Shown piece by piece: positions 3,017 through 44,920 of a DNA stretch of 59,453 bases (positions are counted from its first letter, which is position 1; every line of letters starts with the position of its first letter). Under the pieces are notes generated by a model. That model did not search any database, was not told the origin of the DNA, and was given only the letters and a program-made list of their open reading frames with translations. The translations under genes and the position numbers were made by a program. The stretch comes from Phycisphaerae bacterium (GTDB lineage: Bacteria; Planctomycetota; Phycisphaerae; Sedimentisphaerales; Anaerobacaceae). The stretch covers positions 1 to 59,453 of the forward strand of contig JAGOLX010000038.1 in assembly GCA_017993835.1 (NCBI GenBank). Reading direction: 5' to 3'.

Positions 3017-3099
3017 TCCCAGTTCCGCCATCAGGCGGCTCAAGACCGCGTAAACGCGGAACTCCAAACGGCCGCCTTTCTTCTTCGCAGGAGATCTTG

Positions 3100-3105
3100 T
3101 ATAAT
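3100..3105 (+). promoter_or_regulatory. Candidate -10 box upstream of the HAF gene
   Basis: A consensus TATAAT preceded by TG sits 82 bases before the proposed GTG start at 3187. The corresponding -35 (TTTCTT, about 3077) is weak. Confidence 0.35.
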
Positions 3106-3186
3106 CCAGGTCGCGGCAGCACCTGGACGAGAATCGAGGGGTTGTGGGCGGCGATACGCCGACTGCCCGCTGGGAAAGGACGCGCG

Positions 3187-6818: not shown

Positions 6819-6877
6819 AATCCGAGGCGCCCTCGCGACACAAGGCCGGGACGGCCTCGCCACTTCGGATTCTGCTC

Positions 6878-8065: not shown

Positions 8066-8083
8066 ATTCGAGTCCCCCTTGGG

Positions 8084-8172
8084 ATTTACTATTTACGATT
8101 TACTATTTGCGATTGGATCGTACGCCCGGTCGCAGAACCAAATGGCAAATCGTAAATCGTAAATCATAAATT
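8084..8172. repeat. ATTTACGATTTAC palindromic element, copy 1
   Basis: The left arm (8084-8116) reads TTTACTATTTACGATTTACT and on; the right arm (about 8144-8172) is its imperfect complement (AAATCGTAAATCGTAAATCA). About 30 bases lie between them. It sits between the epimerase and phosphorylase genes. The right arm supplies the last Leu codon and the TGA stop of the epimerase; the left arm ends just before the phosphorylase ribosome site. A second copy lies between gap and pgk. Confidence 0.8.
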
Positions 8173-11368: not shown

Positions 11369-11390
11369 GCCTTTCCATTCCAGAGTGAGC

Positions 11391-11411
11391 GGTGCGTGGT
11401 ACGCACCCTAC
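11391..11411. repeat. 21-bp palindromic repeat, copy 2
   Basis: Identical to 4525-4545. It lies in the 98-bp gap between symporter and GH5 genes of the mannan operon, 22 bases before the GH5 start. Confidence 0.75.
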
Positions 11412-11466
11412 AAATCGCGCGTGGCAGCAGGGAGCGTATCACGCGCCATCTTCTACGCACGGACCA

Positions 11467-17210: not shown

Positions 17211-20200
17211 TCAGCGGTTCCGCAGCAGGTCGATCAGCTCGTCGGCGGTGAGGGTGTGGGCGGTGTCGGTGCCTTCGAGGAGCGAATCCGCCAGGTCCCG
17301 CTTGGCGTGGTGGAGCTGGACGATCTTCTCCTCGATCGTGTCCGCCGCGACCAGGCGATAGATGGTCACCGGTCGGGTCTGGCCGATGCGATGGGCCCGG
17401 TCGGACGCCTGGTCCTCGACCGCGGGGTTCCACCAGGGGTCCATGTGGATCACGTAGTCCGCGGCGGTGAGGTTCAGGCCCAGGCCGCCGGCCTTGAGCG
17501 AGATCAGGAACAGGTCGCCCTCGCCATTCTGGAATGCATCGATCCGTTTTTGGCGGGTCTTGGCGGGAGTTGCGCCGTCGAGGTACTGGTAGCGGATCTT
17601 CCGATCGTCCAAGTGCTCGCGGAGCAGCGTCAGGTGATCGACGAACTGGGAGAAGACGAGGGCCTTGTGCTGGTTTTCGAGCAGCTCGTCCACGAGTTCC
17701 GCGAAGGCTTCGAGCTTCGAGCCGGTCAGGCCGCAGTTGGGCATGACGAGCCGGGGATTGCAGCAGCAGCGGCGCAGCTTCATCAGCTCCGCGAGGACCT
17801 GGATGTGGGCCTGGCCCTTGTCCATGTGCTTGGCGCCTTCGAGCCGCTCCAGGGCCCGCTGGCGGAGCGACTCGTGCAGCGCCCGCTCCTCGGGACTGAG
17901 TTCGACCAATCGCAGGCTCTCGGTTCGCGGCGGCAGGTCTTCGAGCACCTGCGACTTGGTCCGCCGCAGGATGAACGGCTGCACGATCGCCTTGAGGATG
18001 TGACTGGCGTGCGGGTCGTGTCCACCCTCGATGGGCCGGACGAACCGCTCGCGGAATCGCTCCTCGGAGCCGAGCAGGCCGGGATTGATGAAGCGAAAGA
18101 GGTTCCAGAGCTCCGCCAGGCGGTTCTCGATGGGCGTGCCGGTGCAGATCATGCGAAAGCCGCCGGTCAGGTTCATCGCGGCGGATGACCGCTTCGTCGC
18201 GGCGTTTTTGATCGCCTGGGCCTCGTCCAGGACGATGGTCGCGAACTGCACGTCCTTGATCGCGTCGGCCTCCTGCTGGAGCAGCGTGTACGAACAGATC
18301 GCCAGGTCGAACGGGCCGAGCGCCTTGAGGACGTCCTCTCTGCGGCCCAAGTCGCCGATGCCGAAGCGGACGGGACGCAGGGTGGGCGCGAAGCGCTGCG
18401 CTTCGGAAACCCAGTTGGCACAGACGCTGGTGGGAGCCGCGACCAGGGTGGGACCCTGCGATGCCCGATGCAGGATCAGCGCCAGGGCCTCGATGGTCTT
18501 GCCCAAGCCCATGTCGTCGGCCAGGCACGCGCCGACCCCCCACTCGGCCAGGCGGGCCAGCCAGACGAAACCGTCCCCCTGATATGGGCGGAGGGTCGCC
18601 TGCAGGGTCGACGGGATCGCAGGCTGGTACTTCTCGACCGCTCGAATCCGCTCGATGTGGGCGTCGAACTCCGCGTCCGCGTGGAACTCGCCGATCTCGT
18701 CCTTCCACTGCTCCAGGCCGATGGCCGCCAGCGGGTGCACACGGAGCGTGTTGCCCTTGCCTACGAACTGCCCGCCTGCGGAGAACCACTGGAGCTGCTT
18801 GCGAAGCTGGCGGGTCAACGCGATGTACTGGTCCTTGCCCAGGGCGATGAACCGCGTGTCGGCGTTCTCGATCTCGTCCAGCAGGGTCCGCATCTGGACC
18901 ATGAGGTCCTTGTCCACCTGGACCTCGCCTTTGACTTCGAACCAATTCTGGGCGGAGTGGATCGAGAGATGGAACTGTTGCGGCGAGAGCGATCGCACGG
19001 TGATCGGGTCGCCCTTGGGCCACTCGACGGTCAGGACGTCCGACGAAACCGCCTGCAGCTTCTCCAGCAACTCCAGCGCTTCCTCGGGGTCTTCGAGGGT
19101 CCAGACGTAGCTGCTGCAGCCTTCGGCGTCCAGGACCTTGACGGCCTCGAATGCCTGCGAGGCCCGCTCGGTCTCTTCCGCAAGGCGCCGACGGGTTTGG
19201 AGGGTCTTGCCTCCCGTGAACTCGACCAGATGCGAGTTGCCGGCGCCGGGCGGGAACGCCCGCGGAGACTGGTCGCCCAATGGGACAACCACCATCTCCG
19301 CCCGCAAACCCTGCTCCAAGCGTTGCAGACGCAGGCGCGGGCGGCAGTCCGGCTCGACCGCCTCCGCGTCGCCGGCAGCCAGCGCCACACCCGACTGGAT
19401 GGCGACGTGGCGGGAGAGCCCCTGAAGCCGAGCGAGCGCCTCGTTGGCGCGGTCCTTGGGAATCCCCACCCCTTCCGGACCCAGGATCTGGGCCATTCTC
19501 CTGTGCACCGGCTCGAACACGATCACTCGCACGCGGGTCAGCGATTCCCTGACGACCAGGCTGGCGGCGCCCTCATCGTGCAGGCGCGGATCGGGATACG
19601 GGTCCATGCAAATGCAGAGCCGGTCGCCCTTGGGCACGATGTGCACCTCCGGCTGGGCCGACACGATCTCGACCGGCAGATGCGGCGCATCCTCCCAGAA
19701 GACGTTCGGGTGCCCCGCCAGGGCCCGCAGGGCGACGCCGCTATCCAGGCGGTACATCAGATCGTAATAACTGTGTTTGACCATGATGGCCCCCAGGACG
19801 GCCTTGTCCTGGTCCGTCAGGAAATCGAAATCCCGGCTGTTCCGCTCGATCAGTCGAGAGACCGCGATCTCCCGGCCCTTCGTCCAGGCGCCCGTCTTGG
19901 TCCGCTTCTGTTCGACCGGCACGACCGCGATCTGGTCGTGACCCCACTGTCGGAGCTTCCACACCAGGCGACGGGAGGAATCGGCAGGCCCATGGGCGAC
20001 CTGCTCGGCATCGCGGAGGAACTGCTCGAGGGCCGTGACCCGGCTCTCCCAGATCTCCTTGATGGGCCAGAGTTCGGACAGGTCCTTCGCTCCCGTCTCC
20101 TGAAAAAAGGCGTCCACCTGAGCCCCCAGAGCAAGGACATCCAGGCCCAGCTTGTTCGCCAGACGTGCGATCTGCATCTCCGGCCACAGAGCCCCGTTCT

Positions 20201-21515
20201 CCTGGCACTCGCGAAGACAGCTCTCCAGGTCGGACACGAGCTTGCTCTTGTCGGACTTGACCGCCTTGTTCTGCGATCTGTAGAGCTGACCCAGCAGGCG
20301 CATCAGATGGGTGCAGACCCAGATCAAGGGCACGCTCTCACGGTAAAGGGGTAAGCCTCCATCCTGCAAGTCGTCTGCGATATTGCGGCCTTCGTACCAC
20401 AACAAGAGCATCGCCAGGAGACGATAGGCCTGGGAGTAGCCGCCGTAGCCCCTGCCCGTATCGAGCCATGTCAGCCAGGTCCGAGCCTGCTGGTGGTCCT
20501 CCGGCCGGTCGGATTGAACCAGCAGCAGTGCATGGAGAAAGGCCGGGAAGCTACTGAGGTAGTCGAGCTGTGCGGTCTTGCTCTTGCCGGCCTGGCGCTG
20601 GGCCTGTTCGTAGGCATGTCGAGCCTCCTCGATCCGACCCGACAGCAGCTCCAGCATCCCGCGGACGATCCAGGTATCCAGGTCGGCGAAGGTCTCCAAA
20701 ACGGCCCGGGCGGCGGCAAAGTCGCCTGCCAGCAGGTCCCGCTCCGCGATGTGGACGACGCATCGCTGCAGAAGGGACTTGTCCAGGCGCTGGCGGTTGG
20801 CGGCCAGCCAGGTTCGCGCGTAGGCGAAGACGGGGTGATTCAGACGCAGGTAGAGCGTCCGCTGATGCAGACCCGCAGACAGGACCAGGTCGCGATACTG
20901 CGGGATCAGCCGCTCGATGCAGGCCGGCTGGAACGGGTCCATACAGACGACGAGCAACACGTCGACCACAGAGGCGATCCGGTCGTCCTGACTGCACAGC
21001 CCGGCCAGGCGCTTCAACTCATCCTGGTCGTTGTCTTCCAGGGCCAGGAAGACATCCCGGCACGCGTGATGGAACGAGACGAATCGCCGCCGGCCCCACC
21101 GGTACTCCCAGGAATCCAGGCCGACCAGGGCAGGCACCGCCCGTTGCAGCGCCACGGCGAACCGTCGGAGCCATCCCTTGTTGCGGGCCGCCTCGATGAC
21201 GGTTGCGCGGATCGCGGGCGGGCAGGACGCCGGCTCGCTGCCCACAGAACTGATCTGGCCGCGCTCCTTCAGACGCTGGGTACACACCCCCAGCTTCTGG
21301 ATCGTGATGCCCGACCCGTCGCGCATGGTCATCCCGACCTGCTTGAGCGCCCGCGCCAGGTCGTTCTTCGACAGCGGCCCGAAGGACAGGGCATACATCA
21401 ACAGCGCCGCTTCCTCGATACTCGAGGGCAGGCCCACCTCAAACAGTCGGGACTTGCCTTCCGCCGATTTCGAGTCGTGTTGCCCGCCGCGGAACCGATC
21501 CGCCGTCACATCCAT
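17211..21515 (-). CDS. SNF2/RapA-type DEAD/DEAH-box helicase, 1434 aa
   Basis: ATG 21515 follows an almost perfect Shine-Dalgarno (GGAGGTGAT). The C-terminal about 480 residues are a complete SNF2 ATPase: Walker A in LADDMGLGKTIEAL (about 998-1005), motif Ia VAAPTSVCANWVSEAQRF, Walker B DEAQ in VLDEAQAIKN (about 1097), CTGTPIENRLAELWNLFRF, motif V region SLKAGGLGLNLTAADYVI and motif VI RAHRIGQTRPVTIYRLV (about 1372). The first about 900 residues are a long accessory part: an N-terminal helix-turn-helix-like segment (MYALSFGPLSKNDLARAL), a TPR-like helical region (about 250-430), and a beta-rich segment before the motor. Such proteins are DNA translocases that remodel nucleoprotein or stalled polymerase; the exact job here is unknown. 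No defence-system partner is adjacent. Confidence 0.92.
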   Translation of the reverse strand: MDVTADRFRGGQHDSKSAEGKSRLFEVGLPSSIEEAALLMYALSFGPLSKNDLARALKQVGMTMRDGSGITIQKLGVCTQRLKERGQISSVGSEPASCPPAIRATVIEAARNKGWLRRFAVALQRAVPALVGLDSWEYRWGRRRFVSFHHACRDVFLALEDNDQDELKRLAGLCSQDDRIASVVDVLLVVCMDPFQPACIERLIPQYRDLVLSAGLHQRTLYLRLNHPVFAYARTWLAANRQRLDKSLLQRCVVHIAERDLLAGDFAAARAVLETFADLDTWIVRGMLELLSGRIEEARHAYEQAQRQAGKSKTAQLDYLSSFPAFLHALLLVQSDRPEDHQQARTWLTWLDTGRGYGGYSQAYRLLAMLLLWYEGRNIADDLQDGGLPLYRESVPLIWVCTHLMRLLGQLYRSQNKAVKSDKSKLVSDLESCLRECQENGALWPEMQIARLANKLGLDVLALGAQVDAFFQETGAKDLSELWPIKEIWESRVTALEQFLRDAEQVAHGPADSSRRLVWKLRQWGHDQIAVVPVEQKRTKTGAWTKGREIAVSRLIERNSRDFDFLTDQDKAVLGAIMVKHSYYDLMYRLDSGVALRALAGHPNVFWEDAPHLPVEIVSAQPEVHIVPKGDRLCICMDPYPDPRLHDEGAASLVVRESLTRVRVIVFEPVHRRMAQILGPEGVGIPKDRANEALARLQGLSRHVAIQSGVALAAGDAEAVEPDCRPRLRLQRLEQGLRAEMVVVPLGDQSPRAFPPGAGNSHLVEFTGGKTLQTRRRLAEETERASQAFEAVKVLDAEGCSSYVWTLEDPEEALELLEKLQAVSSDVLTVEWPKGDPITVRSLSPQQFHLSIHSAQNWFEVKGEVQVDKDLMVQMRTLLDEIENADTRFIALGKDQYIALTRQLRKQLQWFSAGGQFVGKGNTLRVHPLAAIGLEQWKDEIGEFHADAEFDAHIERIRAVEKYQPAIPSTLQATLRPYQGDGFVWLARLAEWGVGACLADDMGLGKTIEALALILHRASQGPTLVAAPTSVCANWVSEAQRFAPTLRPVRFGIGDLGRREDVLKALGPFDLAICSYTLLQQEADAIKDVQFATIVLDEAQAIKNAATKRSSAAMNLTGGFRMICTGTPIENRLAELWNLFRFINPGLLGSEERFRERFVRPIEGGHDPHASHILKAIVQPFILRRTKSQVLEDLPPRTESLRLVELSPEERALHESLRQRALERLEGAKHMDKGQAHIQVLAELMKLRRCCCNPRLVMPNCGLTGSKLEAFAELVDELLENQHKALVFSQFVDHLTLLREHLDDRKIRYQYLDGATPAKTRQKRIDAFQNGEGDLFLISLKAGGLGLNLTAADYVIHMDPWWNPAVEDQASDRAHRIGQTRPVTIYRLVAADTIEEKIVQLHHAKRDLADSLLEGTDTAHTLTADELIDLLRNR

Positions 21516-25845: not shown

Positions 25846-25874
25846 TTGCACTCTTTACATCTGTAGAGTAGTCT
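25846..25874 (+). promoter_or_regulatory. Promoter with BlaI/MecI operator between -35 and -10
   Basis: TTGCAC (25846-25851) and TAGTCT (25869-25874) are 17 bases apart. Inside the spacer lies TACA-TC-TGTA (25856-25865), the BlaI/MecI/CopY core operator, extended to an imperfect dyad CTTTACA/TGTAGAG. The BlaI gene starts 30 bases downstream, so the operon is very likely autorepressed by BlaI. Confidence 0.8.
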
Positions 25875-25903
25875 CGTCAATGTTAAAGCGAAAGGAGGTT
25901 CGT

Positions 25904-26302
25904 ATGGCGACGAGAGATCACGAGCTGACCGAGGCCGAATGGGACATCATCCAGGTCGTGTGGGAGCGACAGCCATGCGCCGCGCCGACCGTCCAGGAGG
26001 AATTGGCCAGCCGCAAGAAATGGACCTATAGCACGGTCAAAACCCTCATGGACCGCATGGTCGCCAAGGGTCTGCTCACGACCGAGCGAATCCGCAACCT
26101 CATGCTGTACCGCTCGGCGATCAGCCGACGCGACGCTCAGCGAGGCGAACTGATGAAGGCCGTCACACGGGCGTTCGGCGGGGCCTTCACCCCCATGATG
26201 CAGTTCATGCTCGACAACGACGCGCTGTCTCGCAAGGAGCTTGACGATCTCGAATCGTTGATCCGCAAGAAACGCCGCACCGGCAAAGCGGAGGAGAAGT
26301 GA
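25904..26302 (+). CDS. BlaI/MecI/CopY-family transcriptional repressor
   Basis: The product has 132 residues. ATG 25904 follows AAAGGAGG, an excellent ribosome site; the frame is open further upstream but that would run through the operator. The winged helix is at about 7-75 (LTEAEWDIIQVVWERQPCAAPTVQEELASRKKWTYSTVKTLMDRMVAKGLLTTER) and the C-terminal dimerisation helices follow (ELMKAVTRAFGGAFTPMMQFM...LDDLESLIRKK). In the classical system the M56 receptor triggers cleavage of BlaI in its C-terminal half. The downstream gene, 57 bases away, is exactly such an M56 protein. No beta-lactamase or PBP gene is nearby, so the inducer is probably not a beta-lactam in the usual sense. Confidence 0.93.
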   Translation: MATRDHELTEAEWDIIQVVWERQPCAAPTVQEELASRKKWTYSTVKTLMDRMVAKGLLTTERIRNLMLYRSAISRRDAQRGELMKAVTRAFGGAFTPMMQFMLDNDALSRKELDDLESLIRKKRRTGKAEEK

Positions 26303-26359
26303 TGCGTTCGGTGTAACGAAACGATCCCTCAGGCGTCCTCAAGAAGCGGAGGTTCAGCC

Positions 26360-29300
26360 ATGAACACGATAGTCGAAACCATCAATGCGGCGGGCCGGGC
26401 ATTCGTCGGTTTCTCGCTGCCCATGCTGATCCAGTCGAGCGTGCTGATTGTGATCCTGCTGGGGGTCGATGCCGTCCTGCGACGCAAGGTCCGCGCGGTC
26501 TTTCGATACTGGATTTGGCTGCTCGTCCTGGCCAAGCTCGTCCTGCCGCCGTCGCTGGGCTCGCCCATGAGCGTCGGCACCTGGTTTGGCGACAAGCTCG
26601 AAGTCCCGACGATGCTGCCGTTCGAACCAGAGCCTCCCTCGGCGGAGCCGTCCCCCCTCGTATCCGCGATCCTCTCGGCGCCGGACCCGATGTTCCGGCA
26701 GCCTCCCCTGTCGCCGCCGCAGGCTGCTGGACCCACGGCGCCGCCGCCAACCGTCGAAGCAAGCGCACCGGTCCAAACGCCGATGGTCTCTCTGAGTTGG
26801 CAAGGCCTGACGCTGCTGGCGTGGGCGGCTGTGGCGATCGCCTTGACGCTGTTGCTCGTGCAACGCGCATTCTTTGTGCGAGGGCTCGTCGGTCAGGCCC
26901 AAGAGGCGAATCGTGCCCTGCTGGACGCGATGGAGGACTGCCGCGGTCGTCTTGGCCTGCGCAGGCGGATCGGTCTTCGGCTCTCGCCCAACGCCAGCAG
27001 TCCGGCGGTGTGCGGACTTCTTCACCCGACGGTTTTGATCCCGCAGTCACTCGCCCCCAGGCTGCATTCGCACGACTTGCACGCGGTGCTCCTCCATGAG
27101 CTGGCCCACGTCAAGCGAGGCGACCTCTGGGTCAATCTCGCCCAAACGCTGCTTCAGATCGCGTACTTCTACAATCCGCTGCTCTGGCTGGCGAACGCGA
27201 TGATCCGACGGACCCGCGAGCAGGCGGTGGATGAGACGGTCCTCGTCGCCATGGGCGAAACCGCCAAGCAGTATCCCGAGATCCTGGTCAACATCGCGAA
27301 GCTGGCCTTCAGACGCCGGCCCGCGCTGAGCCTGCGTCTGATCGGCGTGGTCGAGTCCAAGAGCGCCCTGACCGGCCGGATCAAGCACATCCTCAGCCGC
27401 CCGATCCCCAAGACGGCCAAACTCGGTATCGTCGGTCTGCTGGTGATCGGCTTGGTTGCGGCCATCCTGTTGCCTATGGCCGCGGACGAACGCTCAGCCA
27501 GTCCGCCCGATGTGGACCAGGAGCAACCATCCATTTTCACTCGGACTCTGCCCAACGGCGTGACGGTCGAACTGCTCGGCGTCTGCGAACACCCCGGCGA
27601 AGGCAAGAGCTGGTGGCGACCGGATGGCGACGGCCTGCTGGCGGAGATCCCCTATCGCACCGGTAGAACCACTCTCGCCCCCTCCCCGGAAGATGTCGCA
27701 TACAAGTTCGCCGTTCGCCTGCATCGCGTTCCCAGGCAAGGACTCGGCAGCATCATGGTCATCCCGTCATTGGGCACGTTAGCCGGCAACATCCCCAGTG
27801 CCACGAGTGGCCGCTTCATCGACGATCTGTACTGGGCCGAGGTCGCTCTGCCGAGGGGCCAGCAGGAATGCTCGATCTGCTGCGTTGTCGCGACCGGTGC
27901 GTGGGAGACCACGGCGCGGATGCCCGTGGAGGCTTTGAACGGTCAGGGGGTGACGATCCGAGGGGTGACATTCTCCTCGCCTGCCGATGACCCGGAAACG
28001 GATGCGACGATCTCTGTCTCCTGCAACATCGGGGATTGGCTCTCGAGGGTAGTGGCGGTTACGGCCGAGGGTCGCGTCATCGGCATTCCTTCCGTTCAAT
28101 GCAATCGCCCACCCCAGACTCGGATTCGCCAGGCGATCGTGCAATTCCCGGGATTGACTCTCGCTGAGATCGAGGAGTTCCAGTTCCAGAGGAGGCCCTG
28201 GAGGTGGGTCGAATTCGAGAATGTCTCGCTTCAGCCCGGTCACAAGACCGATGTCCGGATCAACGCGGCGTCGGAAGACGTCGGCGACGCTGTGCCGGAG
28301 GGCATGGTCGGCACGTGGCGTCTGGAGAATCCCGAGGGCGATGACCAGCAGATGGCGGTCTTCCCCGATGGTCGCGTCCTCGTGCTGTACCCCGACGGGC
28401 ACGAAGACCGAACGCACTACTGCAACGGCTTCCTGACCTTGGGGAACCATGGCTGTGTCCGTGTCCAGACGATTCTGCGGGCCAATGGTACGATTCTGCA
28501 ATACCTCACCGGGGAGGACGGCGACTTGTTTGCCAGGCGATGGAGACGGGTCGCCGCCCAGCCGACGGCCGGCGCGATCAGTCGCGAGATCGTGCTGCCC
28601 GATGTGGACCATGAAGCGGTGATGCTCGATCTGGCGACGGGACAGTTCGTGCCGACGCCGCGAGTCGAGCCGCCGGAGCGGCTCCTGGAGACCATCAAGG
28701 AGCTGGGCAAGGGCGATCTCGTGCTGGACGGCCAGTCCCTGATCCTGGTCCGCGGCGCGACCTCGAAGCAGGCCCAGGAGGGCCCGGAAGGCCTCGTCAA
28801 GATCATCAGGATCGGTTCCCCTCTGCCTCAGATTGTCACTGTCACGGCCGCCGACGGCACGCAGTATCGAATCGACGTTCGCTCCGTCGACGACAAGGCA
28901 TGCACATTCACGTACTCTCCGATCTCCACGGCCGGGGGCGCCAGCGGAGGCGCCCCTGGTGAGCCCGCCACGCCGGACACGAAGCCGTCAGACTCCGGCC
29001 TTGTCGCCCGGCTTGCGAACGGCGTGACCATTGAGTTGCTCGGAGTCTGCGAGCATCCGAACGAAAGCAACCAATGGTGGCGGGCGGACGGCTTGCCATT
29101 ACAGAAGGCCCCGTGCTACAACTCTGGCCTCTCCCGGCGTCCTTCCCGTGAAGGGACTGTGTACGCGTTTGCCATTCGCATGGATTCTGTGCCGGAGGGT
29201 ATGCAGACCGTTGTCGCAATCCCTTCCTCCCATGCCTTAATGAGCTCCGACTCTTCCCAGGATGAGTATGGCCGTCTGATCGAAGACATCTGGTGGGTGG

Positions 29301-32300
29301 AAGCCGTCTTGCCCGAAGTCCGAAGAACCTGCACGGTTCGCTGCGAGGTGGGGAACCGAACATGGGTCGAGTTCCAGGGCGTTTCGCTACAACCCGGCCG
29401 CAAGACCCGCGTCGAAGTCCGCATGGAGCCCAGGCGACCCTACGCAGGAACGAGTATCCCCGGTGACAAAGAGGAACAGACGCGGGCAAATGCTCCTGCC
29501 CGGGAGATTCTCCTGCCGGAGGTGAACCGCCGCAGGGTCATTCTCGATCTGGCCACAGGTAAATTACTTCCCTTGCCGTCGGTGGAGACAGAACCTCAGA
29601 AGATTCAGCAGGCACTGCGCACACGGGACAAAGGCGACGTCGTGTACGACGTCGATCTCCTTGATCGTACGCTTGTCCTTCTGCGCGACGCCACGTCCGA
29701 GCAAGGCTGGGCGGAGATTGGGAAGTCATTCACCACCGGCTATTTCGTCGCCAGAGACGTCCCGGAAACCTTGAATGTCACAACCAGGGAGGGCCGGCAA
29801 TATGAGATCACAGTCCTCTCGGCGAATCCGCATGACTGCACGCTGAGGTACTCACCGATTTCGGCCGACCGGGACGTTGGCGGAGACATCCTTGCCGGGC
29901 ATACAACAGCGGACGCGGCGACGGCGGCAAATGCCTCCGATTCTGGCCTTGTCGCCCAGCTTGCGAACGGTGTAACCATCACCCTGCTGGCGTACTCACG
30001 ACTGGGCGAGGCGGGTTTGGAATGGTGGACGCCGCGAGGCGAGCGAACGGCGATCCCCGGCGTCTACGAGGCCGACGTCGAGGGACATGGCACTGTCCTC
30101 GCGTTGCGGGCTGAGCCGATGCCGGAGGTGGGCGTCTTCGCGTCGCTCTGCCAGCCGCCCGATGTGAAGCAGGAACTGAAACCTGTCTGGCGCGTCGGTG
30201 ACGGCGACATCTGGCTCGTCCCCCTGGGGGAGGGACGCAGCTATGTCAACGTCGAGCTCATGGCTCAGGTCCGCGACCCGATCGTCGCGAAAGCAGTTGC
30301 CAGGGAGGGGTTCTCCTTGCCCGTCGGATTCCAAGCCGATCAGCAGGGCGCCGCGTGGATCAGCGATGTGAATCAAGTGGACTCCGACTCGACGGCGTTT
30401 TCGGCGCCCGCGGGCCCGGACGCACCAGGTGTTGTGGCTGCTCTGGATGTCTCGGGTCAGGTTCATTCGCTGCACCGTGTGCGAAGGGGTGACCTTGAGA
30501 CGATGTACGGTTTGGAGCTCTCAGGACGCAGGCGATACGAGACAGACATACCCCTGGACCGTTTCGCAGGCATTGTGGTGGAGGGGTACAGCGAACGGGC
30601 GGCCTTGATGAGACTGGGGAACCTCTCATTGCGTCCGGGGCAGCCGACCCAGGTCCGCGTCGAGGTGGAACCTGGGCTGCGAGGGCCCTGGTGGCATCGT
30701 AGCGAGTCCGACTCCAAACTCGACGATTTCTGTGGACGTCTCGTGGGGTACGCGGAGGCTCACGGCGGCTCGTATCCCGCGAATGAGTCTGCCCTGCGAG
30801 CCGTCTGTTCTGATGAGCTCTGGACCTGGTTGCAGGGGCACGTGGTCTATCTCGGCGCCGGCAAGTCCCCGACACGCGACGAAGGCGTGCCCATCGCCTA
30901 CGAAAGGACACTGCTGTCCTTCGGCTTCGGCACCCACATGCTCTACTCCGACGGCAACGTGGAATTCGTGGTTCCTTCGAAGCTCAAGGAACTTGGTATC
31001 CCGACGGGTGATGACCGCAGGAAACAGGGGGATCCCGACGCAAAGCAGAAGATGAACCAGCTTGCTCTGGCCATCAACAAGTTTGCAGACAACCACCAGG
31101 GAAATCTGCCTGTGGCGCTTTCGGCTCTCTCGTCGTATCTGGACGACCCTCAGACCCGCGCCTGGCTCGACGAGAATGTCACCTACGTCGGCAAAGGGAA
31201 CGTGAACCGTCGCGGGGCAGGTTCGATAGTTACCGCCTTTGAGAGGAACCCCCAGCCGACGGGCGAACGTTACGTCCTGTTCCTGGACTACCACATCGAG
31301 CTGGCCGGGCCGCAACGGCTCGCGGAATTGAACATCGAGAATGCCGGCCAGGTCAAGGGCGGCCCATTGGAGTTTCGAATCGCGGTGGACCTCGCGAGTC
31401 TGGACTCGGTCGCCATCGAGCGGTATCAACAGGCGCTCGTGAACGGCAACAACCCGCCGGAAGCGGATTTCGCGTGGTTCCCCACCCGGGCGGGCATGAC
31501 CGGTTTCCCCCAGGTGCCCGCCCAGGAGCGCGAGGGCACAACGTATGTACTGCTGTGGAACAAGCCGCCTCATGTGATTTTACCGAGCCAGGACTGGGGA
31601 CTGGACAAGGTCTACAGGACTACCGATGCCAATGGCAGATCCGCCATCGGGTTGACTCTGAACCAGAAGGGCGCCTCCCTCTTCCACGACATCACCGCAG
31701 TGAATGTGGGACGCCCTCTCGCGATCCTCGTTCACGGCGAGGTGGTTTCGATGCCGCATATCATGTCACCCCTTGATGGCAGGTCTGCTCTAATCACCGG
31801 CAGTCTCACCGAACGGGAAGTGGCCGACATGATGGCGACCCTGCGCCCGGTACGGGAAACCACCACCGACAGAGACGGTGCGACAGCAGGACCGCTCGGA
31901 CGATATACGCTATCGTTCGATGGCGTCGATGACTGCCTGATCGTTCCTGCCAGTCCGTCGCTGAGGTTGAAGCCGCCGTTCTTCATCGAGGTGTGGGCCA
32001 GGCCGGACTACTCCGCTCCTTCTTCGTCCTCGCCTGAGGACAGGACAGGGGCGCTTGCGATGTGCCTGATTCGACAGGGCAGGGAATTGCGTGGCGCATC
32101 AAGGCCTGAGGTGGATGAGACCGAGAAGGCCAACGCGGACGGATGGCCTCCGCTGCCTCGCGACAGAGTCACGCTTACCAACCTCCAGTCCGGCGGCTTC
32201 ATGGGTCTTGTGCGAGGGGGATTCTTCGCGGTCCAGGAGAATGGAAAAGCGATGCAGACGGGCATTCTCCGCAAGAACCAACTGGGCGTGGACCGTGCCG

Positions 32301-35300
32301 GCTGGCAGCACTTCTATGTATCGCTCGACGACGCATCAGAGTATGTGCCGTCTGACGGTCCGCTCGTGATCGGCGGAGACCTCGCGCCCCATATCCCCGC
32401 TTTCAAAGGGCAGATCGCGGAGATCCGTATCTGGAACGGCGTGCCGCGCGGCCGGGACACTCGATATGTGGGGACTACCTCCGTGACGGGCACCGAGCCC
32501 AACCTCGTCGCCTGCTGGACCTTCGAGGAGGGCACTGGCCAGATCGTCCGCGACATCAGCCGCAACGGAAACCACGCACGTCTGGGTAATTCCGGCGATG
32601 CAGACGATGCCGATCCAACTTGGATTGACTTGATGCAGACAGACCCGGTTGCGGCGAGGGCCAATGTGACGCTCACGCTGGGCGGCGATGACCCGCTTGG
32701 GCTCTTCTACAACGAGCATGGCCTGTGGTTCGAGCTGGACAATCACGGATCTGACTCCGTCGAGATCAATCCCCACCCCTTGGATCAGGACGAGAATCGC
32801 AGGGGCGAGTGGGGATATGTCGAGGTGCTCGCGGAGGACGGCACCTCAGTGACCTACAAGCGGCGAGAATCCCCTCCCAGCGTGCATAAGATCCCGCCCG
32901 GAAAGCGATACAAGGTCCAGGACTTCCTGAATGGCATGCCCTTGAGAGAGAGCGGTCCCGGTGTCTACAAGGTCCGTCTGACGTTGCGCGTGCGGAACGC
33001 GCGGACGGACGAGGTCGCGTTCGTCCCATCAAATTGGCACACGTTCCGCGTCACGCCGGCGGGTCGTTGGCCGGACCAGGTGCGAGGACCCTATGTGGAA
33101 CTCCGCGAGGCGGAGGCATTCGCAGCGACGTGCAACTACGGACACGGCTCCCACGATGAGGCGATCCAGCGGCTGCTCTCGCTCGCGGAGAAGTACACCG
33201 GCACGAAGTACGCGCTGGAGGCATACTTCACCGCGGCCGACCAGGCAAATACCGCGTCCTACGGACCCGGCGATCTGGCCGCCTATCAGGCCAAGCGAAG
33301 GGAGTATCACAGGGAGATCGTGAAACGCTGGCCGGACGTGGTCAATCATTACACGATCTACGCCCGGCTGCATACGTACTTCGGGATGCCTGAGTCCGAA
33401 TTCATCCAGTCACGCCGGGAGACGTACCGGTGGCTGTTGTCCATTACGGAAGAACAGAAGATCGCCAGCATCCGAGCTTACGGGGCCTTTACGGTCCGGC
33501 CCTCGGACGAGCCAACGGACGAGAACCTTCGTCAGAGTCTGCTGTCCTTGAATCAGTACATCAGCCAGACGAAGCAGATGCTCGAGACGAGCATTCCGGA
33601 CATCGCGGCAGACGCGTCGACGCCCCCAGCCGGGTCGGAGACGCTGACGAACACAGTCCGAGATGCGACTCCGAACACTCTCGCTGCGGCATTGGCCAGT
33701 GATCGCGTGAAAGGGCGAGCAGAGGGCGGTCTCGCCTGGCAGCGGACGGATCGGTATGTCCCGCCGGACCCCGATGGGTTCTTCCCGGATGATCCGGAAG
33801 GCGGCAAGAGACTCGATTCGCTCTTTCAGGCTGTGGACAAGGACGCACGCTCGGATGACGAGATCCTCTCGACCGTGCGCCAGGGTTTCCGACGCACGAC
33901 CCAGCATCGCACGCTCGTCCTCTCCTGGATCGGAAATCGGTACATCTGGAACAAGGACCCGCAGAATGCTCAGGCAATCGAGATCATGTACCACGCGGCG
34001 CCGCTCGAACAGCATTACGCAGTCTATTTCGGCCTGTCCGTCACTCGCCACAAGACGCCCAACATCCTGCGAACGCTGGCCGACATCTGCATGCGTGGCG
34101 AAGAGGTCGGACGGATCACCTGGGGCCTCGGCGACCAACGGGACGCAATGCTGGCGTATATCACGCCGCACTTGCAGGACAGCGACCCCGACAAGCGTCA
34201 GACCGCCGAGCTGCTCGTGAAGCACTTCAAAGGCGAACTGGACTTTGAACAATGGCAACGCGAGAAACGCGACGAGCAGGCGAGAGCCAGGCTGGGCGAT
34301 CAATTGCCTCAGATCAGGCAGACGCTTCTTGCCGGGGACAGCGAGGCACGCCGCCAGGCCTTTGTCACGCTGGCACGCAGCGGCGGGTCCGTCCTGGATG
34401 ATTCATTCCTGCCGGCCCTGCAGGCTGCGGCCTCCGACCCGAGCTCGGAGGTCCGCAACGACGTCGTTCGCACCGTCGGCGGGCGGTGGATCTGGTCGGC
34501 CCAGCAGCAGGACCCGAACGCCATCGCATTAACGCTGCGCCTCTCGTCGGATTCCGACCGCGAAGTGCGGTACAACGCGGTCTACTACGGCCTGTCTACC
34601 GTGCGGGACAAGAGCGATGCGGTCGTCCGACGGCTGGTGGAAATGGCCCTGGCCGAGCACGAGAACAATCTCTACGGCCGGATCGTTTGGGGTCTCAAGG
34701 GACCCATGCAGGCCACCCCTGCGTCGTTCACGCAGGCGCTCGCGGAACACCTCGACCGCGCCAAAGCGGATTTGCACTACGCTGCTTCCGTCTATCAGCT
34801 TCACCGCGACGTCCTGGGGACGGAGCCTGCCGACGACTGGGGTCTGGCGAGAGTCCGAGATCGCTATCCGGACGATTTGTTTGTCATCCCATTCTCCGCC
34901 CGGGAGCCATTCAAACCGGCGGACGCCGATGCGCTCTGGACCGAGTTCTCCGCGGCGCTGCCCGCAGGTGTCACGGCCGAGCGGCTCGCAGGCTGGTACG
35001 ATAGCAGAGCGACCGTCTGCCGCGCGAAGATCCGCGGAAAGGAGCGTGCCGAAGCGGTCCGAACCGCCATTGAGAACCACCCCCGCCTCCGCGCGGGCGA
35101 GATCACGCCGTTGACCGTGCCGATGCAGTTGTTCCTGGAGGAGAGAGGCAGTCCCGCAAGCACGCGGGCGCAAGTCGCGTCGCCTCAGCCGCGAGCGGAA
35201 TCCGGGACAGAAACGCCGACTGGGCCGGGCCCGATCCAGCAGAAGATCGACGCGGCCGCCCCAGGCGACACGATCCGGCTGGAAGCAGGCACCTACCACG

Positions 35301-36433
35301 AACGCCTGCGGATCGACAAACCGCTCACGCTCGAGGGCGCGGGCTGGGACAAGACGACCGTGACAATGGAGAGTCGAATGCCCGAATCGAAGGAACAGGC
35401 CGCAGACCTGGCGGCCCTGTCGGTCCTGTCCGTCGTCGGGACGCGGGACGTGACCATTCGCGGCATCAAGTTCACCGCGCCTGGCCGGCGCCTGCGAGGC
35501 GCGTCCCTCCCGACCGCCGTCGTCTCGCTCAACCGATGCGGAGCATGGCTCACGGACTGCGCCGTGATCGGCGGGCCGGGGGACGGAATCCACGTCCTCG
35601 ACGAGTCCAACGTGGCGATGCAGCGATGCCTGGTGGCTGCGGTCTGGGGGACCGGCGTCCGCGTCGGCTCCCCGAAAGACGTGTCCGAAGCGAGCATCGC
35701 AGACAGTGACATCCGCAACTGCCACTACGCAGGCATCCGCATCGCGAAGGGCAACCAGGCGACCGTCGAGCGGTGCCGGGTCTCGGGCGCCGCCTGGCAC
35801 GGGATTCGTTACGACGACGCGTCGCCGGTGATCGCAGGCAATCTGATTTTCGCCAGCGCCCGCTCCGGCATCTACGCCTCCGGCCGGACGCAGGCGACCA
35901 TCAAAGGAAACCTCTTCTGGGCCAACGAGATGTGCGGCATGTCCTGCTGGTTCCAGGACAACGACCGGATCGAAGGCAACACCTTCGTCCAGAACAAGCG
36001 CTCGGGACTCGAAATCATCGGCGCCTCGAAGCCGGACGTTCGCAACAACATCTTCTACGCCAGTCCCGCGGGCGTCTCTCTCGGCGACGTCGCCGATGAT
36101 TCGCCCTTCGCCAAGTCCGACGGCGCGGCGCCGCTCGAAGGCAACATCTTCTGGACCAACGAGCAGGCGATTCGGCGCGGAGGCGGTGCCGTCACCGAAC
36201 AGGCCGCGGTGCTCGATGAGAAGGCGGGCGTCTCCTTCGACCCGCGATTCGTAGCGCCGGACGCCAGGGACTTCTCGCTGAGGGCGGACTCCCCCGCCCG
36301 GAAGAAGGGCATCGGCGCCGCCGACCTGATCCCATTCGCCAGTCCCTGGCCGATCCAGCCGGAGGAATCGGCCATCATCCCGCGAGGGGACACCCGCGAT
36401 TCCCGCCAGTGGCGCGATCCGCTGGTCCAGTAG
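26360..36433 (+). CDS. Giant BlaR1-like M56 membrane metallopeptidase with multidomain extracytoplasmic sensor (3357 aa)
   Basis: ATG 26360 follows GGAGG. Residues 1-375 are an M56 domain with four membrane segments (about 17-37, 48-63, 148-167, 355-374), the zinc motif HELAH (246-250, in HELAHVKRGD) and the distal Glu region REQAVDETVL. After the last helix about 2980 residues lie outside. In order: a module opening NGVTVELLGVCEHP (about 397), repeated at about 885 and, diverged, about 1200; companion blocks with VMLDLATGQF and VILDLATGKL (about 742 and 1047); a SecD P1-head-like domain (about 1725-1830, GRSAIGLTLNQKGASLF...VGRPLAILVHG); a LamG-like domain (about 1850-2077, SFDGVDDCLIV...CWTFEEGTG); a beta domain; TPR-like helices (about 2270-2375); two related HEAT-like blocks (about 2500-2640 and 2665-2790); a NosD-type right-handed beta-helix (about 2956-3307). 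BlaR1 itself has about 600 residues. It probably senses an envelope or carbohydrate signal and inactivates the upstream BlaI. Confidence 0.9.
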   Translation: MNTIVETINAAGRAFVGFSLPMLIQSSVLIVILLGVDAVLRRKVRAVFRYWIWLLVLAKLVLPPSLGSPMSVGTWFGDKLEVPTMLPFEPEPPSAEPSPLVSAILSAPDPMFRQPPLSPPQAAGPTAPPPTVEASAPVQTPMVSLSWQGLTLLAWAAVAIALTLLLVQRAFFVRGLVGQAQEANRALLDAMEDCRGRLGLRRRIGLRLSPNASSPAVCGLLHPTVLIPQSLAPRLHSHDLHAVLLHELAHVKRGDLWVNLAQTLLQIAYFYNPLLWLANAMIRRTREQAVDETVLVAMGETAKQYPEILVNIAKLAFRRRPALSLRLIGVVESKSALTGRIKHILSRPIPKTAKLGIVGLLVIGLVAAILLPMAADERSASPPDVDQEQPSIFTRTLPNGVTVELLGVCEHPGEGKSWWRPDGDGLLAEIPYRTGRTTLAPSPEDVAYKFAVRLHRVPRQGLGSIMVIPSLGTLAGNIPSATSGRFIDDLYWAEVALPRGQQECSICCVVATGAWETTARMPVEALNGQGVTIRGVTFSSPADDPETDATISVSCNIGDWLSRVVAVTAEGRVIGIPSVQCNRPPQTRIRQAIVQFPGLTLAEIEEFQFQRRPWRWVEFENVSLQPGHKTDVRINAASEDVGDAVPEGMVGTWRLENPEGDDQQMAVFPDGRVLVLYPDGHEDRTHYCNGFLTLGNHGCVRVQTILRANGTILQYLTGEDGDLFARRWRRVAAQPTAGAISREIVLPDVDHEAVMLDLATGQFVPTPRVEPPERLLETIKELGKGDLVLDGQSLILVRGATSKQAQEGPEGLVKIIRIGSPLPQIVTVTAADGTQYRIDVRSVDDKACTFTYSPISTAGGASGGAPGEPATPDTKPSDSGLVARLANGVTIELLGVCEHPNESNQWWRADGLPLQKAPCYNSGLSRRPSREGTVYAFAIRMDSVPEGMQTVVAIPSSHALMSSDSSQDEYGRLIEDIWWVEAVLPEVRRTCTVRCEVGNRTWVEFQGVSLQPGRKTRVEVRMEPRRPYAGTSIPGDKEEQTRANAPAREILLPEVNRRRVILDLATGKLLPLPSVETEPQKIQQALRTRDKGDVVYDVDLLDRTLVLLRDATSEQGWAEIGKSFTTGYFVARDVPETLNVTTREGRQYEITVLSANPHDCTLRYSPISADRDVGGDILAGHTTADAATAANASDSGLVAQLANGVTITLLAYSRLGEAGLEWWTPRGERTAIPGVYEADVEGHGTVLALRAEPMPEVGVFASLCQPPDVKQELKPVWRVGDGDIWLVPLGEGRSYVNVELMAQVRDPIVAKAVAREGFSLPVGFQADQQGAAWISDVNQVDSDSTAFSAPAGPDAPGVVAALDVSGQVHSLHRVRRGDLETMYGLELSGRRRYETDIPLDRFAGIVVEGYSERAALMRLGNLSLRPGQPTQVRVEVEPGLRGPWWHRSESDSKLDDFCGRLVGYAEAHGGSYPANESALRAVCSDELWTWLQGHVVYLGAGKSPTRDEGVPIAYERTLLSFGFGTHMLYSDGNVEFVVPSKLKELGIPTGDDRRKQGDPDAKQKMNQLALAINKFADNHQGNLPVALSALSSYLDDPQTRAWLDENVTYVGKGNVNRRGAGSIVTAFERNPQPTGERYVLFLDYHIELAGPQRLAELNIENAGQVKGGPLEFRIAVDLASLDSVAIERYQQALVNGNNPPEADFAWFPTRAGMTGFPQVPAQEREGTTYVLLWNKPPHVILPSQDWGLDKVYRTTDANGRSAIGLTLNQKGASLFHDITAVNVGRPLAILVHGEVVSMPHIMSPLDGRSALITGSLTEREVADMMATLRPVRETTTDRDGATAGPLGRYTLSFDGVDDCLIVPASPSLRLKPPFFIEVWARPDYSAPSSSSPEDRTGALAMCLIRQGRELRGASRPEVDETEKANADGWPPLPRDRVTLTNLQSGGFMGLVRGGFFAVQENGKAMQTGILRKNQLGVDRAGWQHFYVSLDDASEYVPSDGPLVIGGDLAPHIPAFKGQIAEIRIWNGVPRGRDTRYVGTTSVTGTEPNLVACWTFEEGTGQIVRDISRNGNHARLGNSGDADDADPTWIDLMQTDPVAARANVTLTLGGDDPLGLFYNEHGLWFELDNHGSDSVEINPHPLDQDENRRGEWGYVEVLAEDGTSVTYKRRESPPSVHKIPPGKRYKVQDFLNGMPLRESGPGVYKVRLTLRVRNARTDEVAFVPSNWHTFRVTPAGRWPDQVRGPYVELREAEAFAATCNYGHGSHDEAIQRLLSLAEKYTGTKYALEAYFTAADQANTASYGPGDLAAYQAKRREYHREIVKRWPDVVNHYTIYARLHTYFGMPESEFIQSRRETYRWLLSITEEQKIASIRAYGAFTVRPSDEPTDENLRQSLLSLNQYISQTKQMLETSIPDIAADASTPPAGSETLTNTVRDATPNTLAAALASDRVKGRAEGGLAWQRTDRYVPPDPDGFFPDDPEGGKRLDSLFQAVDKDARSDDEILSTVRQGFRRTTQHRTLVLSWIGNRYIWNKDPQNAQAIEIMYHAAPLEQHYAVYFGLSVTRHKTPNILRTLADICMRGEEVGRITWGLGDQRDAMLAYITPHLQDSDPDKRQTAELLVKHFKGELDFEQWQREKRDEQARARLGDQLPQIRQTLLAGDSEARRQAFVTLARSGGSVLDDSFLPALQAAASDPSSEVRNDVVRTVGGRWIWSAQQQDPNAIALTLRLSSDSDREVRYNAVYYGLSTVRDKSDAVVRRLVEMALAEHENNLYGRIVWGLKGPMQATPASFTQALAEHLDRAKADLHYAASVYQLHRDVLGTEPADDWGLARVRDRYPDDLFVIPFSAREPFKPADADALWTEFSAALPAGVTAERLAGWYDSRATVCRAKIRGKERAEAVRTAIENHPRLRAGEITPLTVPMQLFLEERGSPASTRAQVASPQPRAESGTETPTGPGPIQQKIDAAAPGDTIRLEAGTYHERLRIDKPLTLEGAGWDKTTVTMESRMPESKEQAADLAALSVLSVVGTRDVTIRGIKFTAPGRRLRGASLPTAVVSLNRCGAWLTDCAVIGGPGDGIHVLDESNVAMQRCLVAAVWGTGVRVGSPKDVSEASIADSDIRNCHYAGIRIAKGNQATVERCRVSGAAWHGIRYDDASPVIAGNLIFASARSGIYASGRTQATIKGNLFWANEMCGMSCWFQDNDRIEGNTFVQNKRSGLEIIGASKPDVRNNIFYASPAGVSLGDVADDSPFAKSDGAAPLEGNIFWTNEQAIRRGGGAVTEQAAVLDEKAGVSFDPRFVAPDARDFSLRADSPARKKGIGAADLIPFASPWPIQPEESAIIPRGDTRDSRQWRDPLVQ

Positions 36434-42797: not shown

Positions 42798-43043
42798 ATG
42801 TTGGCCGTGCCCGGCATCAGAGAATCCGAGGCAGAATTTCCGCAACGCGAGCGGCCAAGTCGGGAGAGCCAGGGAGGAAATCGCGTCTGTCGGGTCCACA
42901 TCGTAGAATCCAGCTACGTCGAGGGCACTCATCCAGGAATTCAGATCCGGGCTCGGGTCCTCCGCACACGGAAGGTCGCTCAGCCCTGCGGCTCTGTGGA
43001 GGCTGCACGATCAGGCATTTATGGATTAGGAGATAGAATATGA
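42798..43043 (+). CDS. Small hypothetical protein coupled to the astacin gene
   Basis: The product has 81 residues and is unrecognised. Support: consensus-like promoter, AAGGAGG six bases before ATG 42798, and a TGA stop (43041-43043) overlapping the next gene's ATG (43040) as ATGA, the signature of translational coupling. It contains a single Cys pair region (NRVCRVHIVESSYVEGTHPG, then VAQPCGSV) and no signal peptide. It might be a leader cistron rather than a functional protein. Confidence 0.5.
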   Translation: MLAVPGIRESEAEFPQRERPSRESQGGNRVCRVHIVESSYVEGTHPGIQIRARVLRTRKVAQPCGSVEAARSGIYGLGDRI

Positions 43044-44920
43044 CCGGTCATAGACTCGTCACCTCATCGACTCGGAGTCCGCTCGTATCCGAAGGAGTTC
43101 TGTTGGTTGTTCTCTGTGCCTTTGTCGCCTCGCTCCCCAGGAGGGTCGTCTTTGCCGCAGAGGAGGCCTTCGACATCTTGCCCTGGACGGACGGGATCGT
43201 GTACTACAAGTTCGACGATGGTTCGGTCGGTCCCGTGGCCGTGCACGCGGACGACCAGGCGAAGATCGAGAACGAGATGGCGACATGGGAACAGGCACTG
43301 ACCCTTGCCGACCCGAGCGGCTCGGGAACGAAACGATACATCGACTTCCGCCCGTGCGGCAACACTCCCCGGACAAACTATCTTCTCGTTCGATACAATC
43401 ACCTGAATGCAGACGGGACGGAGGCCGAGTGCAACAACATGCCGGACCCGGTCGGCATGGAAGCCCGAGATCCCGATGGTCATCCTGAGAACGAGAACGA
43501 CGATGGGGTCACGGAACTGCACTTTCGACGGGGGACGTGTCCCGCCGAGGCGGACGCGACCCATTTGTCGCTGCCCGTCCCCGCGAGCGCAAGGACGAAC
43601 CAGCCTGACCGCATCATTCTCCACGAGTTGGGCCACGCCCTGGGTTTCTGGCATGAGTTCAACCGCGAAGACGCCGATCGGTGGTTGATCGAGGTTCCCG
43701 ATGAAGATGGGGATGTCTTCGCCGATTCATTCGGGACGAAGGCGGGTCTCATGCCGGCGTTGGGCAATTACGACTATGATTCGATCATGCATTACGGCTC
43801 GGGGAAGATCGGAGGCGCCCCTGACTATAACGACTACCTCGATAACACGTTCGACAAGGGCATCCAAAAGGCCGTGCTTTCCGAACGAGACAAATCCCGC
43901 CTTCTGCAGTACCTGGCGCACGAGCGATATCCCAACTGGGGTTTTTTCAAGTCCCTCAGCTCTCAGTCACGGTACGATCCGGATGAGCTGCCCGACCCCT
44001 ATCTGGTGGAGGGCGTCGAAGCGATGGGGACACCGGCAATCGCCTACCAGAGCCCCGGCAATTACACCCTGTTCGCCCGCGGTTCCGACAACTGCATCTA
44101 TTGTCAGGAGTATTGGACCGCGACGAACAATCTTCCGGTGGTGGACCGTTGGCGTTCCATTGGATCGCGTTTCAGTTCCGATCCGGCCGCGGTCTCGCGG
44201 GCTGCCGACAGATACGATGTCGTCGCTGTCAACGATCAAGGAGACGTTCAGCGCATCAAATACATCGAGGGAGTCTGGTACGAACCGCTGACCATCCGGG
44301 GCGGGCACCCCACGGGCGGGCTCAAGCAGGACGACAATGGGAACTACATAGGCCCAGCCATTGCCTCGCGAGGCGCCAACCTGCTGGAGGTATTCGTCGT
44401 CCGCAGCGACGGGCGTCTGGCGGTGACCACATGGAGCAACAACACCTGGGGGCAGTGGCGTACGCTCGACGATGGCTATGACATAACCGCGCAACCGGCC
44501 GCGGTCGCTCTCTCCGATGCGGAGATCCAGCTCGCCATCAACGAGAGCCATGTGTTCCTGTACGAACCCCTTCTGACATTTGCTCCCCTGGTGCCGTCGT
44601 TTTCCGTGGGCATCGCCAAGGCCGCCACAGCGAACGATGCCCCGCCTGCGATAGCCACGCGGGGCGGCCAGACCAGTCGTTATCGCGTGCTCATCGCGAA
44701 CTCCTACGGCCGCATATCTCACCGGACTGCCACCGGGGACTGGATGGAAATTGGCGGGATCCTCAAGCCCGGCACGGGACCGGCCGCTGTGGCAACCGGA
44801 GATTACTCGTTCAGACTCCTCATGAACGGCGAAGATGCCACCGGGTGCGATCTCTCCTACTCCTCAGGGCCCGGCCGCGACAGTCGCCCAGGCGGCCTCT
44901 GGATAAGAGATTGCGATTGA
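43040..44920 (+). CDS. Astacin-like (M12A) secreted metalloprotease with C-terminal lectin-like propeller
   Basis: The product has 626 residues and a TAGGAG ribosome site. The signal segment is about residues 17-40 (EGVLLVVLCAFVASLP...VVFAA). The catalytic domain (about 45-300) carries the complete astacin zinc signature HELGHALGFWHE (about 195-206) and the Met-turn SIMHYGS (about 251-257). The remaining about 300 residues form repeats such as GTPAIAYQSPGNYTLFARGSDNCIY, SDPAAVSRAADRYDVVAVNDQGDVQ, GPAIASRGANLLEVFVVRSDGRL and PPAIATRGGQTSRYRVLIANSYGRI, a pattern of PLL-like lectin or sialidase-type beta-propellers. It is expected outside the cell, degrading proteins while bound to glycans. Confidence 0.9.
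   Translation: MTGHRLVTSSTRSPLVSEGVLLVVLCAFVASLPRRVVFAAEEAFDILPWTDGIVYYKFDDGSVGPVAVHADDQAKIENEMATWEQALTLADPSGSGTKRYIDFRPCGNTPRTNYLLVRYNHLNADGTEAECNNMPDPVGMEARDPDGHPENENDDGVTELHFRRGTCPAEADATHLSLPVPASARTNQPDRIILHELGHALGFWHEFNREDADRWLIEVPDEDGDVFADSFGTKAGLMPALGNYDYDSIMHYGSGKIGGAPDYNDYLDNTFDKGIQKAVLSERDKSRLLQYLAHERYPNWGFFKSLSSQSRYDPDELPDPYLVEGVEAMGTPAIAYQSPGNYTLFARGSDNCIYCQEYWTATNNLPVVDRWRSIGSRFSSDPAAVSRAADRYDVVAVNDQGDVQRIKYIEGVWYEPLTIRGGHPTGGLKQDDNGNYIGPAIASRGANLLEVFVVRSDGRLAVTTWSNNTWGQWRTLDDGYDITAQPAAVALSDAEIQLAINESHVFLYEPLLTFAPLVPSFSVGIAKAATANDAPPAIATRGGQTSRYRVLIANSYGRISHRTATGDWMEIGGILKPGTGPAAVATGDYSFRLLMNGEDATGCDLSYSSGPGRDSRPGGLWIRDCD

Follow-up and report, generated by a model that had tools for sequence, protein, structure and literature searches.

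A BlaI-M56 gene pair with a giant modular ectodomain: a candidate autoregulated proteolytic switch in Phycisphaerae

BlaI/BlaR1 is the textbook case of repressor-cleavage signalling, and to our knowledge signalling of this type is known almost only for antibiotics and copper. The gene pair analysed here, from a Phycisphaerae bacterium (GCA_017993835.1), shares with the staphylococcal pairs BlaR1/BlaI and MecR1/MecI a BlaI-type repressor, a TACA-N2-TGTA-type operator, a four-helix M56 protease with HEXXH and EXXXD motifs and a C-terminal part predicted to lie outside (PMC9834060). Unlike those pairs, which expose one penicillin sensor domain, it carries about 2980 residues outside without a penicillin sensor, no beta-lactamase target was found for it, and the cleavage-site residues are apparently not conserved in either protein (for BlaI this is tentative). 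Cyanobacterial PetR/PetP likewise places a BlaI-family regulator under a BlaR1-family protease that serves a non-beta-lactam signal, but it is one pair only, whose response to copper and target genes, petE and petJ, are known, and a giant modular ectodomain is not reported in the commentary describing it (PMC7896320). A BlaR1-similar M56 protease without an equivalent penicillin sensor has also been noted in M. tuberculosis; no large ectodomain is described for it in the same structural paper of S. aureus BlaR1 (PMC9834060).

The window, that is, the whole stretch of DNA analysed, comprises 59,453 nucleotides of contig JAGOLX010000038.1, from an assembly in 115 contigs; the promoter, genes and modules of the pair lie on its forward strand, and the operators are given without strand. 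A BlaI-type repressor of 132 aa (25904..26302; winged-helix domain Penicillinase_R PF03965, E=6.9e-29) is followed by a giant M56 protein of 3357 aa (26360..36433; ORF and Pfam), whose frame starts with ATG behind a GGAGG ribosome-binding site and runs stop-free through 3357 codons. Codon-position GC was coding-like throughout this frame, with GC3 at 0.70-0.87. The first-pass annotation had described a repressor with an operator in its own promoter, then an M56 peptidase with an intact HELAH motif and about 2980 residues beyond the last membrane helix, all of which was confirmed by Pfam, the open reading frame, hydropathy and the promoter sequence. It had also reported that no penicillin-binding domain is present, and Pfam and NCBIfam searches of the giant protein indeed gave no penicillin-binding or class D domain at E<=1. 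Among the 20 window proteins tested, no beta-lactamase or mecA-type target gene was detected. Judged by sequence, the pair belongs to the M56 and BlaI families, is BlaR1/BlaI-like in its anatomy and, by the tests made, is not a beta-lactam receptor.

As in BlaI/MecI repressors, a TACA-N2-TGTA-type operator lies in the repressor's own promoter. The core promoter (25846..25874) consists of a -35 element TTGCAC (25846-25851), a 17-bp spacer holding the operator, and a -10 element TAGTCT (25869-25874), and related promoters are laid out alike. Operator O1, CTTTACATCTGTAGAG (25853..25868), thus has its core TACATCTGTA (25856-25865) between the two elements. The dyad is conserved across the clade of this M56 protein: the perfect form TACANNTGTA occurred in 31 of the 32 clade promoters, in most of them some 35 bp ahead of BlaI, and the extended operator CTYTACANNTGTAGAG at up to one mismatch in 30 of the 32. 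By chance, the short perfect dyad was found in 23 of 3000 random windows (<1%). In the source genome, 8 of the 15 BlaI promoters carried the dyad at one mismatch or fewer, located 36-44 bp ahead of the start, compared with about 2% of random windows. A second element, O2 (CTCGTCAATGTTAAAG, 25873..25888), lies 20 bp downstream of O1; its position is conserved in the aligned clade promoters and 9 of 14 specified bases match, which makes it a possible weak second operator.

The protease core matched Peptidase_M56 (PF05569, E=3.6e-45) over residues 21-344. Alignment to S. aureus BlaR1 (8exp) placed the HELAH zinc motif at residues 246-250 (27095..27109) and the third ligand, E287, in EXXXD. Both motifs, HEXXH and EXXXD, were kept, together with an aspartate that lies five residues beyond HEXXH, the tyrosine after EXXXD and an arginine near the end, and these signature residues, the ones named in the structural paper (PMC9834060), were invariant across eight relatives. 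Hydropathy predicted exactly four membrane segments (14-41, 44-62, 147-178 and 349-378); the final 2980 residues contain no further one. At the BlaR1 autocleavage pair, the alignment to 8exp showed Arg-Leu in place of Ser-Phe. The BlaI cleavage site, which we take to be Asn-Phe, appears as Phe-Met here, a difference that we treat as tentative.

Beyond the last helix the protein is a chain of modules, which we delimited mainly with profiles of our own; in the similarity search, this tail served as the query. Beta module 1 (residues 393-634, 27536..28261) is followed by a 'lip' module (645-740, 28292..28579; profile from 5 proteins), a first 'ab' copy (754-855, 28619..28924), a half copy of the beta module (883-1002, 29006..29365), a second 'ab' copy (1060-1167, 29537..29860) and a diverged beta module (1191-1444, 29930..30691). 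The beta modules had been called triplicated, too loose a term for one full, one half and one diverged copy. No Pfam family matched any of the 47 members of the beta module. Its AF2 model (pLDDT 84) was nearly all beta, and structure searches of the PDB gave no close match (best Foldseek E 0.023; for one half, 94 residues at a best VIA Z of 8.1). We therefore claim no fold family for it. Within the source genome this module is confined to three M56 proteins; in relatives most copies sit inside M56 frames, and some stand alone as membrane or secreted proteins.

Two pilin-like modules (residues 1452-1547 and 1563-1659, 30713..31336; AF2 pLDDT 92.3) come next. They have no Pfam match, and their structural matches are topped by type IV pilins, at a modest Z (6xxd in VIA, Z 6.6, 86 residues, rmsd 3.4). 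A SecD P1-head-like module (1703-1829, 31466..31846; PF22599 SecDF_P1_head, 1.7e-15 over 1753-1829) shares about 35-47% identity with frames of about 1240 aa that are probable SecDF genes of the order. The LamG-like module (1842-2091, 31883..32632) has clear relatives in other giants and a weak Pfam score (Laminin_G_3, 0.16), and the Ig-like and TPR-like region after it (2095-2448, 32642..33703) was absent from the other M56 proteins collected. The chain closes with a HEAT-repeat module (2458-2820, 33731..34819; HEAT_2, 3.9e-6 over 2654-2741), 62% identical in the relative L238, and a right-handed beta-helix module (3022-3352, 35423..36415; Beta_helix PF13229, 2.9e-20; NosD, 1.3e-13). By Pfam, the domain list drawn up at first reading stands for the SecD P1-head-like, HEAT and beta-helix parts and is marginal for LamG; it had missed the two pilin-like modules.

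The arrangement is not isolated. The source genome encodes 17 M56 and 15 BlaI genes, mostly paired, and the protein described here is the longest of the 17. M56 proteins were found in 46 of 60 related genomes, and an M56-clade scan of genome contigs yielded 137 relatives, 80 of them retained, nearly all in Phycisphaerae/Sedimentisphaerales assemblies; BlaI stood directly upstream of almost all of them. The survey of planctomycete genomes proposed earlier thus shows the pair in many related genomes. BlaI-M56 pairs with proteins of 2000-4353 residues recur in related Phycisphaerae/Sedimentisphaerales, the longest frames among relatives being 4353, 4134, 4038 and 3606 aa. A frame listed at 4219 aa for genome G061 was discarded, since direct reading gave 4038 aa ending in HEAT. 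Outside the order, M56 frames listed as longer than 2000 aa were rare in a sample of 149 genomes from across the phylum. The papers searched contained nothing on M56 ectodomains in planctomycetes, and the giant BlaI-M56 class is undescribed in Pfam and in the literature searched. The proposal of an undescribed system holds in that respect and in the recurrence of the arrangement; what changes is that the locus is a member of a modular class reaching 4353 aa. We regard this class as a candidate major signalling class for these planctomycetes.

The switch and the ectodomain evolve very differently. The modules recur across other M56 proteins in varying order and number: profiles built on the protein studied here, applied to a set that includes some loci fetched twice, counted the beta module in 55 proteins (86 domains), the pilin-like module in 21 (43), SecD in 13, LamG in 10, HEAT in 9 and the beta-helix in 6. 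LamG precedes HEAT here and in L238, and follows it in L178 and L241. In other giants, CarboxypepD_reg, AhpC-TSA, Clp_N and transglutaminase domains also occur. Clp_N is usually found in cytoplasmic Clp ATPases; two giant M56 proteins (L238:2330-14443 and L241:3150-13967) carry it in their ectodomains. Among 92 nonredundant receptors, pairs with 60-70% identity in the M56 core had a median of 11% of the ectodomain alignable, and 46% of such pairs had less than 10% of it in common. Mapped onto the M56 tree, the giant state shows at least 10 changes, the beta module 21 across its 33 carriers and the SecD-like module 7 across its 8. BlaI and M56 distances are correlated (r=0.72 over 73 pairs; maximum 0.16 in 2000 permutations), a correlation that is partly shared descent. 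The conservation of the switch against the ectodomain is a direct observation, as are the genes, the catalytic residues and the operator. The ectodomain is a mosaic of shuffled modules that would evolve by swapping and fusing, so the receptors probably differ in what they perceive while relying on the same switch. One genome holds about 15 pairs of this switch, joined to ectodomains of very large size whose rate of change far exceeds that of the protease. This makes it testable whether almost any ectodomain is able to drive a BlaR1-type protease.

We further searched the source genome for other operators, using one 16-bp pattern at up to two mismatches, a setting at which weaker sites could exist besides those found. 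At up to one mismatch the extended operator occurred once, in the BlaI-M56 promoter, and at two mismatches there were fewer sites than for the reversed-pattern control; it was likewise single-copy in several other clade genomes. The genome-wide TACA-N2-TGTA scan suggested earlier as a way to define a regulon revealed none: the 10-bp dyad gave 23 sites, compared with 43 for its reversed control, and 7 of the 23 fell in five BlaI promoters, with nearly all of the rest intragenic. By the 16-bp test, therefore, no external target gene is visible and the operon is the sole output to be seen in this genome, which would amount to a self-amplifying control over how much giant protein is made.

These results lead us to favour, at a probability of roughly 60%, a BlaR1-type autoregulated proteolytic switch with a rebuilt, hypervariable ectodomain. 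BlaI dimers on O1, and perhaps also on O2, would sit between the -35 and -10 elements and hold the two-gene operon low. The M56 protein would span the membrane four times, with its protease on the cytoplasmic side and an external part of about 2980 residues. If the ectodomain changed, whether by ligand binding, contact or mechanical load, the change would pass through the last helix and activate the protease, BlaI would be cut and the operon would turn on. We infer the action of the protease on BlaI, induction by an outside event and the ligand; of the readings considered, the best supported is a giant, variable receptor that controls itself. The earlier label of a new envelope-sensing system is plausible by analogy.

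The strongest competitor, unlikely in our judgement, treats the ectodomain mainly as a product and not as a sensor: signal peptidase would cut the chain behind the last helix, leaving the M56 part as an autoregulated anchor and the giant part as an adhesin-like protein, at the surface or shed. The last helix (residues 349-378, 27404..27493; hydropathy and motif count) holds the clade motif LLPMA, and LP[MLI]A closes it in 72 of 98 nonredundant relatives. A small residue stands at +2 after the motif in 60 of these 72 (Ala in 44), compared with 21 at +1 and 11 at +3, so that an A-x-A, signal-peptidase-I-like site appears to follow the helix in most relatives and ectodomain shedding is possible. 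S. aureus BlaR1 is itself shed through an SpsB cut in the matching linker (PMC9834060), which speaks for a product, as do the operon's standing as sole visible carrier of the operator and the occurrence of the HEAT and beta-helix part as its own gene in the same-genus locus L085. However, shedding of BlaR1 is turnover and not delivery, and the protein studied here reads LLPMA-A-D instead of A-x-A, which weakens the case for shedding in this member.

Locus L085 (genome G003) also bears on whether the giant frame is real or a chance or assembly fusion without function, a reading that we consider improbable. L085 is colinear with our protein from an 'ab' module through SecD, LamG, HEAT and beta-helix, but the part corresponding to residues 2454-3355 is a separate 895-aa gene, whose beta-helix module is 63% identical to ours. 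Its receptor part has an in-frame TAG and a frameshift and terminates after a thioredoxin-like domain; an intergenic region containing a long inverted repeat separates it from the 895-aa gene. At the position where that gene starts, our protein carries a linker. The contig (L085:1-7840) begins inside the receptor, so the M56 part falls outside it. Separate encoding of the C-terminal part in close relatives, named in the first-pass annotation as grounds for giving up its proposal, was thus found for the last ~900 residues in L085. M56 and the HEAT and beta-helix modules share one frame in L238 and L235. Against a meaningless fusion stand the independent giants of up to 4353 aa in many genomes, with in-frame HEAT or beta-helix, the coding composition along the entire frame and its distance from the contig ends. 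Because a same-genus genome encodes these ~900 residues in a gene of their own, our protein probably grew by fusion, and the L085 arrangement suggests how such giant proteins may grow.

It is hardly probable, in turn, that the receptor is tuned to a single defined envelope event (protein-export stress, for instance) by way of its SecD-like module. The presence of this module and its resemblance to the order's probable SecDF genes would fit, but it comes and goes on the tree and is absent from the close relatives L235, L238 and L178. Translocation stress, one of the triggers offered at first reading, gains no special support, since the SecD-like module is one of many interchangeable ones. An ordinary beta-lactam sensor with a diverged sensor domain is the least credible reading: the BlaI/M56 pairing and the operator type would suit it, but no penicillin-binding match was obtained, the blaR1 model matched at positions 106-321 of 585 only, and no beta-lactamase lies among the neighbours tested.

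Some clade genomes hold the 16-bp operator in tens of copies (66, 68, 30 and 30, with 0-3 for the reversed control). Though suggestive of a regulon, these copies were not taken for one: 39 of the 40 fetched head a dispersed repeat of about 240 bp, and the fortieth is a BlaI promoter. Conservation of the repeat starts exactly at the operator, and its layout (operator, four bases and a TACA half site) is similar to that of certain BlaI promoters in those genomes. The repeat is intergenic, with a spurious frame beginning MQNKPNFRKSQMNVN, and was seen at L277-L316 (G063, G218) and also in G062, G219, G020, G021 and G011. A wider and more doubtful form of the favoured reading would tie these strands together as a constant-variable receptor class, in which a conserved operator-repressor-protease switch, each copy chiefly self-controlling, carries a giant module-fused ectodomain shed by signal peptidase, and in which some relatives have the operator at the head of the repeat, tens of copies genome-wide. 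If this were true, the operator-headed repeats would give the repressor a genome-wide set of binding sites in those relatives.

Elsewhere in the window, we noted glycan-use genes at 4827-13329 (alpha-L-arabinofuranosidase, GH130, epimerase, GH5-like and sodium symporter) and an alpha-N-acetylglucosaminidase, also for glycan use, at 54403-57003. Further genes encode an SNF2-type helicase of 1434 aa (17214-21515), a protein with a partial astacin-type metalloprotease domain (43040-44917) and a protein with five chagasin-type (I42) peptidase inhibitor stretches (57484-59022).
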